Assembly (NCBI GenBank): GCA_020850325.1
Contig: JADZEW010000034.1
Coordinates: 1 to 33,392 of the forward strand
Origin: Methanoregulaceae archaeon
GTDB lineage: Bacteria; Armatimonadota; Fimbriimonadia; Fimbriimonadales; Fimbriimonadaceae
Length of the DNA: 33,392 bases
Direction: 5' to 3'
Shown here: piece by piece, positions 16,274-32,694 of the stretch
Layout: each line of letters opens with the position of its first letter
Numbering within the stretch: the stretch's first letter is position 1
Notes under the pieces: generated by a model
Told to the model about the DNA's origin: nothing
Seen by the model: the letters and a program-made list of their open reading frames with translations, nothing else
The model's database searches: none
Translations under genes and position numbers: made by a program

Positions 16274-16383
16274 AGGCGTCGCTCGGCAGGCCCACCACGA
16301 GGGGCGTGGATGCCATCGTGCCGCGCGAACGGACTGGCACGGCGCGAGCAACCCGATCTCAGATCTGCAACTCACTCCCCGTC

Positions 16384-24085: not shown

Positions 24086-24182
24086 CTCGTAGGAGCGGGA
24101 TGTATTCGTGCCCGCTCTGATCTGAGATGTTCCGGCACATTGCATCCGGAACCCGCAAATAGGGCAGGATGCCCGCCCCACC
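24086..24182 (+). repeat. Palindromic repeat element, family A, copy 1
   Basis: A ~97-base element. Hairpin 1 is GAGCGGG-ATGTATTCGTG-CCCGCTC (24093-24117, 7-bp stem). The centre is TTCCGG..CCGGAA (24130-24135/24146-24151). The far arm holds GGGC-AGGAT-GCCC (24162-24174) and ends in GCCCCACC. The two arms are imperfect inverted repeats of each other. Related copies are at 24471-24537 and 25082-25172. It lies between the PEP-CTERM terminator and the end of glcE. Confidence 0.7.
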
Positions 24183-24197
24183 GTGCCGAGCTTCCGT

Positions 24198-25067
24198 CTA
24201 AAGTCTCAAGTAGCCAGGGTTAAGCACGCCGCGTGGGTCGAGTTGTTCTTTGGCCCGCCGCCACAGCGGCAGCAGCGCCGGAGAGTCGGGCACCAGAGCG
24301 CCGGGGCGCATGACCCAATCTCCCTCAAATCTCGGCAGCGGCTCGCGGGTGCGTGCCCACAGCGTCGCGGTCGGCGGGTGGAACGCATGGGGAACCCCGT
24401 CTGCCGCCGCTTGCAGAAGAGGGCCATCGGTGAGCGAAACGCGCTGGATGTGCCAAGGATCTCCTTCCATCTCGTAGCCGCGGGATGATTCGTGCCCGCG
24501 CTGAATCTGGCCCAAAAGGGAAGAGCGGGTGCCCCACGGAACCGCCTCGTTCGTACCGGCATGACCCGCTGGTCCCACCAAAAGGGTTGCCTCCAACACC
24601 ACGGCCAGCGTCCCCCGGCTCCCCACGATGAGCTTCTGCACGTCGTATCCCGCTACGTTCTTCACCGCCCGCGAGCCGATCTTGATGATCCGGCCGTCGC
24701 CCATCAGCAGCTTGGCCCCGAGCAACCAATCTCGCCAGCCGCCCCGCTCGAACTCGTCAGTGTGCGGCGGGTTGATCGAAAGCAACTCCGCCAACGTCCA
24801 ATCCCCGAGCGGCATCGGAGACTCTCCCACCGGCAAGCGGCGCTGATCGGCGACCAACAACTCCTGCAGCGCGTCGAGCGTCATCCCCGCTTGAACCGTA
24901 ATAACCAGGTCCTCCGGCGAGAACTCGACAACGTCCGCGTATCTCGCATGGCTGAGTTCGGGCAGATCGTCGTCCATCCGCCACTCCGGCGGGATCGAAT
25001 GGCGCACGGCCTGGGCGGCCAAGATCGCTTCACTCCACTCGGCAAGGGTGGTGGGGGAGTGCTGCAT
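24198..25067 (-). CDS. glcE: Glycolate oxidase FAD-binding subunit (GlcE-like), with an in-frame repeat insertion
   Basis: A 289-residue protein, shorter than the ~350 of E. coli GlcE. The FAD_binding_4 (PCMH) domain is clear: VVEFSPEDLVITVQAGMTLD, RRLPVGESPMPLG, LLGAKLLMGDGRIIKIG and VKNVAGYDVQKLIVGSRGTL. The C terminus ends in the usual QLDPRGVLNPGYL. After ATLLVGPAGHAGTNEA, about 22 residues (WGTRSSLLGQIQRGHESSRG onwards) are encoded by a family A palindromic repeat at 24471-24537. This keeps the frame open but falls where GlcE should continue into its central beta-rich part. The ATG at 25067 is chosen; the frame further upstream runs through a repeat. GlcE works with GlcD and GlcF. Whether this protein is active is uncertain. 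Confidence 0.87.
   Translation of the reverse strand: MQHSPTTLAEWSEAILAAQAVRHSIPPEWRMDDDLPELSHARYADVVEFSPEDLVITVQAGMTLDALQELLVADQRRLPVGESPMPLGDWTLAELLSINPPHTDEFERGGWRDWLLGAKLLMGDGRIIKIGSRAVKNVAGYDVQKLIVGSRGTLAVVLEATLLVGPAGHAGTNEAVPWGTRSSLLGQIQRGHESSRGYEMEGDPWHIQRVSLTDGPLLQAAADGVPHAFHPPTATLWARTREPLPRFEGDWVMRPGALVPDSPALLPLWRRAKEQLDPRGVLNPGYLRL
24471..24537 (+). repeat. Palindromic repeat element, family A, copy 2, inside glcE
   Basis: A 67-base relative of copy 1: hairpin CGCGGG-ATGATTCGTG-CCCGCG (24479-24500, 6-bp perfect stem), then a far arm ending GGTGCCCCAC. The central TTCCGG hairpin of copies 1 and 3 is absent. It lies entirely within the glcE reading frame, in the opposite orientation to the gene. 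Confidence 0.7.
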
Positions 25068-25081
25068 AGTGGTCAAGACCT

Positions 25082-25172
25082 TTGTAGGCGAGGGGTGAAT
25101 CGTACCCTCGCATTCCGAGATCCCGGAAGTCTCTGATTCAGAGCGGGCACGAATGCATCCTCGCTCCCACAA
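25082..25172 (-). repeat. Palindromic repeat element, family A, copy 3
   Basis: A 91-base element just upstream of glcE. Imperfect ~30-base inverted repeats bound it, starting TTGTAGGCGAGG on one side and TTGTGGGAGCGAGG on the other. The centre is TTCCG..CGGAA (25113-25117/25124-25128). One arm folds as CGAGGG-GTGAATCGTA-CCCTCG (25089-25110). The other, on the minus strand, has loop ATGCATTCGTG closed by GG/CC and GAGCG/CGCTC with one bulged A. Confidence 0.7.
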
Positions 25173-32585: not shown

Positions 32586-32641
32586 TTAGGAAGGGAGAAT
32601 CCTCTTGGATGGGCGAACGACTACACGGTATCCCACGTGGG

Positions 32642-32663
32642 GCAGGGATGCCTTGTGCCCTGC
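32642..32663 (+). repeat. Half copy of palindromic family A
   Basis: GCAGGG-ATGCCTTGTG-CCCTGC is a perfect 6-bp hairpin. Its loop matches the family A loop (ATG..TT.GTG), and the bases before it, GTGG, match the element edge. The second arm of the element is not seen. Confidence 0.5.
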
Positions 32664-32694
32664 GAGCGAAGCGGCCCAACCTCTCCACCCCCAA

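Follow-up and report, generated by a model that had tools for sequence, protein, structure and literature searches.

The recurrent hairpins in the DNA analysed here (a stretch of 33,392 nucleotides, hereafter the window) are very likely REPs, non-autonomous single-strand-DNA mobile elements, most probably copied or moved by RAYTs as REPINs. The system is thus a REP/REPIN-RAYT system rather than a new structured RNA. The host, a member of the Fimbriimonadaceae (Armatimonadota), is a poorly studied environmental bacterium, and its genome carries well over 150 REP copies in total. This source genome (G000) was compared with that of one congener (G001), and statements about the genus refer to these two species only.

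Six clear REP units and a weak one were located in the window (Table 1). They follow one plan, with a foot (GTAG, GTGG or ACGTGG/ACGAGG), a 6–8 bp stem and a 10–11-nt loop of the form ATG...YGTG. A preliminary description of the same DNA had listed four hairpins, at 24093, 24479, 25089 and 32642, and all four are present with the stems it gave; the two inverted partner units and the weak copy were absent from it. Its loop consensus, ATG..TTCGTG, is kept at the 5' end (ATG) and the 3' end (YGTG) and varies at the centre. In both REPINs the two units face each other with their feet outside, and the imperfect inverted ends that had been remarked on do exist but are actually the two REPs of one such inverted pair. 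The central TTCCG..CGGAA hairpin that two copies had been thought to share was a misreading of two unlike things, the stem of the second, inverted REP (24128–24153) and a spacer hairpin between REPs (about 25113–25128). The class F unit sits inside a minus-strand FAD-binding gene, the reading frame of which is unbroken. A plus-strand ORF called at 24561–25136 was rejected as spurious, the real gene being this minus-strand one.

Table 1. REP units, REPINs and other features located in the window and, where a contig is named, elsewhere in the two genomes.
Feature	Position	Strand	Sequence features
Weak REP, class D-like, intergenic	16297–16330	+	foot ACGAGG; stem GCGTGG/CCGCGC; loop ATGCCATCGTG
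REPIN 1	24087–24158		
REP unit, class A, left half of REPIN 1	24087–24120	+	foot GTAG; stem GAGCGGG/CCCGCTC; loop ATGTATTCGTG
REP unit, class A partner, right half of REPIN 1	24125–24158	-	foot GCGG; stem GTTCCGG/CCGGAAC; loop ATGCAATGTG
FAD-binding domain protein (PF01565, glcE-like), host gene of the REP at 24472	24198–25067	-	
Single REP, class F	24472–24504	+	GTAGC; stem CGCGGG/CCCGCG; loop ATGATTCGTG
REPIN 2	25082–25172		
REP unit, class E, left half of REPIN 2	25082–25114	+	GTAGG; stem CGAGGG/CCCTCG; loop GTGAATCGTA
REP unit, class A, right half of REPIN 2	25138–25172	-	extra stem base, n=1 (TGTGGGAGCGAGGATGCATTCGTGCCCGCTC)
Single REP, class C	32635–32667	+	foot ACGTGG; stem GCAGGG/CCCTGC; loop ATGCCTTGTG
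rve integrase core domain gene (IS3-like transposase fragment), near contig end	32764–33267	-	
REPIN L007, G000 contig C21	209218–209302		
RAYT paralogue L070, G000 contig C30	124502–124900	-	
RAYT paralogue L083, G001 contig C60	16673–17071	+	
RAYT-like protein L071, G000 contig C24	136136–136507	+	
RAYT-like protein L084, G001 contig C35	1632–2003	-	

The family is far beyond chance. The covariance-model search that had been proposed gave at least 143 matches at E ≤ 1 in the source genome among 150 scored candidates; the cmsearch E-values of the window copies are not independent, those copies being in the training alignment. The pattern GGATG N4-5 GTGCC specifies both ends of the loop and the innermost two base pairs and leaves the rest of the stem free. 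It matched the genome at 31 + 72 places and its reversed control did so at 3 + 0; with N4 it had 79 matches in the congener against 1. Among the 103 copies selected in this way by their loop, at least three of the next four stem positions are paired in 89. The four pairs outside GG/CC are kept at a mean of 3.53 of 4, compared with 1.82 (s.d. 0.11, maximum 2.28) over 2000 shuffles of the 3' arms among copies; the fully paired copies include 20 different four-base left arms. The earlier statement that the stems differ yet stay paired is thereby borne out as compensated stem change of the kind known from REPs. A previous pair count on copies chosen for their pairing was circular; it agrees, but was replaced by the loop-selected test. 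Since one pair within one class occurs as C-G, as T-A and as a T-G intermediate (GTGGGCGAGGG..CCCTCGC, GTGGGTGAGGG..CCCTCAC and GTGGGTGAGGG..CCCTCGC, respectively), the change is not merely a mix of unrelated founders. No clear strand preference in wobble pairs was apparent by eye in the pair counts of the 103 copies. A GTRG-type foot, G[TA][AG]G, is present in 83 of the 89 well-paired copies. Two more classes with other loops were found at 28 + 33 places, partly overlapping the first set.

The arrangement of the copies is that of REPs and REPINs. For the 137 located units, neighbours within 150 nt comprise 26 foot-out inverted pairs, eight foot-in pairs and five tandem pairs; the foot-out pairs are mostly 2–23 nt apart, and two of them lie in the window. 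The two arms are often different stem sub-types of one class, such as CGCGGG with CGCCGG or AGCGGG with TTCCGG, and some inverted pairs mix classes, as REPIN 2 does. Besides their high number, the located copies are mainly intergenic, with 132 of the 137 outside called ORFs and five inside, the same caller assigning 83% of the sequence to coding; the intragenic count is approximate because the caller missed the FAD-binding gene that holds the class F unit of the window. The neighbouring genes are convergent for 51 copies, codirectional for 68 and divergent for 10.

A RAYT-like transposase linked to the elements had been named as a further expectation, and RAYT genes with these hairpins on their flanks, in inverted orientation, were indeed found. 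There are 10 matches to NF047646 in the source genome and 13 in the congener, and the genus has about ten HuH/tyrosine RAYT lineages, most of them with inverted REPs of a class of their own on the flanks. L017, L018, L019 and L020 encode proteins of about 160 aa with the motifs DHxH, WQ (LQ in L020) and Y[IL]AxNP. Three of the four pass the NCBIfam cut-off of NF047646, L020 scoring below it, and their profile matches the solved TnpAREP 4ER8 (E 3.8e-11) with the HuH, WQ and Y...NP motifs aligned. L017 is flanked by class A (GAGCGGG with GTTCCGG), L018 by class B (CTGGCGG, loop TTGCATYGTC), L019 by class C (GCAGGG) and L020 by class D (GCGAGG); class A also flanks L076 and class C also L082. To judge from these flanks, the class A of the window (24087) belongs to L017 and its class C (32635) to L019. 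The other lineages go with classes F (L074), G (L078), H (L081), I (L069/L073, with an A.A mismatch in the stem), J (L072) and K (L068/L080).

Own-class hairpins are present on both sides of L018, L019, L020, L074, L079, L082, L068 and L080, as in REPtrons, while L017 and L076 have clear ones upstream only and a degenerate or weaker hairpin downstream. Wherever a RAYT is present in both species, its orthologues have one and the same class beside them (A, B, C, I and K). Neighbours in the RAYT tree have a common foot type in the case of B and G (CCTGAGG), C and D (ACG[TA]GG) and H and I (CGGAG), and the loops of most classes end in TYGTG or TYGTC. REP abundance and RAYT presence agree when the genus is set against the rest of the phylum; for the two most abundant classes, E (GTRGGYGAGGG) and F (GTAGCCGCGGG), no intact cognate RAYT was found in the source genome.

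Two side observations concern the RAYTs themselves. L018, L069, L073, L078, L079 and L081 have divergent N-terminal halves and nearly identical C-terminal 40 residues, which suggests gene conversion or domain exchange among these six proteins. The long RAYTs L016, L075 and L067 (subclass 2.1-like) have 23-bp palindromes in inverted orientation on their flanks, with a loop of 3 nt and 8–11 copies per genome; the palindrome at L016 and L075 is an inverted CCGCCACAGTCGCACTGTGGCGG, and the arrangement of these two resembles that of the TIRYTs (Di Nocera, 2013, PMC3733652).

The window region aligns with a single contig of the congener (C179). REPIN 1 is common to both species at the orthologous site, between convergent genes in each; one stem base has been lost in the congener, and the foot of the right half reads GCGG in the source genome and GTGG in the congener. 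Within the FAD-binding gene, the class F unit of the source genome is matched in position by a class E unit of opposite orientation in the congener (L117, about 1590–1625), and the frame is open in both despite the unlike REPs. There is precedent for two species that carry unlike REPs at nearly the same site of a gene (Nunvar, 2010, PMC2817692; PMC3733652). REPIN 2 lies within a 137-bp stretch without counterpart in the congener, a gap larger than the REPIN that fits insertion or deletion; a clean empty site was considered for 25082–25172 and rejected, about 45 bp of flank being missing as well. Of 24 comparable orthologous sites assessed by eye, both species have a REP at 15, the congener lacks one at seven, and two are unassigned. 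This sample favours shared sites because part of the congener sequence had been selected for its REPs. The class differs wholly or partly at three of the 15. Where the congener copy is missing, the gaps are not of exact REPIN size and fit insertion or deletion alike. At one orthologous site (L007; L184 in the congener) the REPINs of the two species are alike in the right arm and differ in the class of the left arm (CGCGGG vs CGAGGG).

The preliminary description had offered a REP/MITE element or a small structured RNA. Its REP reading stands on the intergenic copies, covariation, inverted pairs and RAYT flanks; there is no specific sign of a trans-acting structured RNA, and the window has no Rfam match. 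As for a MITE of a DDE transposon, its transposase would be of the DDE type, whereas the one matching these REPs is of the HuH type. A role as cis-acting RNA elements (3'-end stabilisers or terminator-like structures), in which the hairpins would be retained because they act on transcripts and transposition would belong to the past, is rather unlikely. The preference for places behind genes and the retention of REPIN 1 between convergent genes in both species would fit such a role, but the same placement bias is reported for REPs generally (PMC3733652) and would follow from promoter avoidance. Moreover, copies occur in both orientations and without a T-run, some lie within an ORF, and the REP classes are tied to RAYT genes.

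The RAYT association, together with the inverted-pair geometry, the copies within genes and the Rfam result, also makes a family of trans-acting small structured RNAs very improbable, even though such a family would explain strong stem covariation and a conserved loop. Least probable of all are chance hairpins of a GC-rich genome. The folding z-scores of single hairpins are modest (-1.6 to -2.3), and the weak copy at 16297, which folds poorly alone (-0.18), is the sole one that could be chance; for the family as a whole, the 0–3 control matches against 31–79 pattern matches and the shuffle test refute this explanation.

Under the preferred reading as REPs of a REP/REPIN-RAYT system, a unit comprises a purine-rich foot (GTRG, or the variants GAGG/GGAG), a 6–8 bp stem and a 10–11-nt loop. 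A RAYT/TnpAREP of the HuH family would bind the single-stranded hairpin via foot and loop, its tyrosine would cleave beside the hairpin, and units in inverted pairs (REPINs) would then be copied or moved into tolerated intergenic places. With each RAYT lineage keeping its own REP class, the stems would change between classes and stay paired. We infer binding, cleavage, mobilisation and the reading of the loop by the protein from characterised TnpAREPs. Binding and cleavage of single-stranded REPs are established in three systems, and loop positions are crucial in two (PMC8266576). By the same analogy the protein may contact the conserved loop end, and specificity would come from the foot and stem of each class. 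Work on REPs and REPINs has proposed that RAYTs mobilise inverted pairs (Bertels & Rainey, 2011, PMC3116915; PMC6006769), a model that fits the arrangement and turnover seen here.

The REP load of the congener is similar (121 matches at E ≤ 1e-4). Outside the genus the family is nearly absent from the genomes searched. Among 39 other relatives, matches were found in two (9 and 1), and in a sample of 291 genomes of the phylum, at E ≤ 1e-5, with stricter filters and a smaller number of scored candidates, five genomes outside the genus had at least 1–3; these counts miss REPs with other stems because the covariance model is tuned to this genus. TGG.TCGT-like loops also occur at the Armatimonadota RAYTs L094, L108 and L110 and in REPs of two further genomes (G014 and G016). 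Not every REP of the phylum has a long loop, since that of L106 (Armatimonadota) is of 5 nt. Most related RAYTs of Nitrospirota, Planctomycetota and a deltaproteobacterium have GTAGC CGCAGGC hairpins with 4-nt TTTA/TTCA loops on their flanks. Our literature search found no published description of Armatimonadota REPs, and the phylum is not named in the main text of PMC3733652 or PMC6006769.

The elements resemble the GTAG REP super-family and its REPtrons (PMC2817692; PMC3733652) in their GTRG-type foot, short palindrome and 100+ copies. They share with them the intergenic location, rarity between divergent genes, inverted dimers, occasional in-frame copies in genes, RAYTs flanked by their own inverted REPs, and several REP classes per genome, each with its own RAYT. 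The hosts of GTAG REPs in PMC3733652 are Proteobacteria, Cyanobacteria, Chloroflexi and the PVC group, whereas the host here belongs to the Armatimonadota. Some feet here are GAGG or GGAG, unlike those of GTAG REPs, and the loops have 10–11 nt (ATG...TYGTG) compared with 2–4 nt for most loops described; GTAG-15 loops, of 9–15 nt, are said to resemble GTAG-3/14 loop ends. The inverted pairs with a short spacer are as in REPINs (PMC3116915), but here the arms are often two sub-types of one class and some pairs mix classes. The RAYTs have the HuH, WQ and Y...NP motifs of the E. coli TnpAREP (PDB 4ER8) and of those of S. maltophilia and Marinomonas (PMC8266576), although the sequence similarity is distant. 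Their REPs, with perfect stems and an informative loop, resemble the second group in PMC8266576, in which loop positions are crucial for cleavage.

Every structural feature (a REP class for each RAYT, inverted REPs on the flanks, preference for intergenic places, in-frame copies within genes) has REP/RAYT precedent. As far as the literature search shows, three things are new: the phylum, a long loop ending in TYGT that most classes have in common, and the number of pairs in one genus. The combination of a 10–11-nt ATG...TYGTG loop (TYGTS in most classes) with class-changing stems is unusual, as are the number of RAYT-REP pairs in the genus and the presence of two conserved RAYT paralogues without catalytic residues.

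The first of these paralogues (L070 and, in the congener, L083) has an intact ORF without HuH (PSQF instead) and without the Y...NP motif, with 89% identity between the species and a dN/dS of 0.18. The second, more distant RAYT-like protein (L071 and L084) is likewise intact and conserved in both species, lacks HuH and the tyrosine motif, and has a dN/dS of 0.11; weak matches of similar length in two other genomes (G010 and G007) may be its orthologues. One class E REP lies directly downstream of L070 in outward orientation. A tie of L070 to class E is suggested only tentatively, because the contig ends on the other side of the gene and L083 has no class E REP nearby. More speculatively, the REPs of Armatimonadota may form a lineage apart: the TYGTS loop end would be a recognition module common to about ten RAYT-REP pairs, foot and stem would give the pair specificity, and L070/L083 and L071/L084 would persist as proteins that do not cut, of which at least one may regulate by binding REPs; we regard this as doubtful.

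The findings extend REP/REPIN-RAYT systems to the Armatimonadota, with about ten RAYT-REP pairs in one genus. Related RAYTs with related feet and a common loop end form a natural series for asking whether a RAYT reads foot, stem or loop, a question that has been studied in three systems (PMC8266576). The conserved, catalytically empty paralogues are relevant to the question of how transposases of this kind turn into host proteins.
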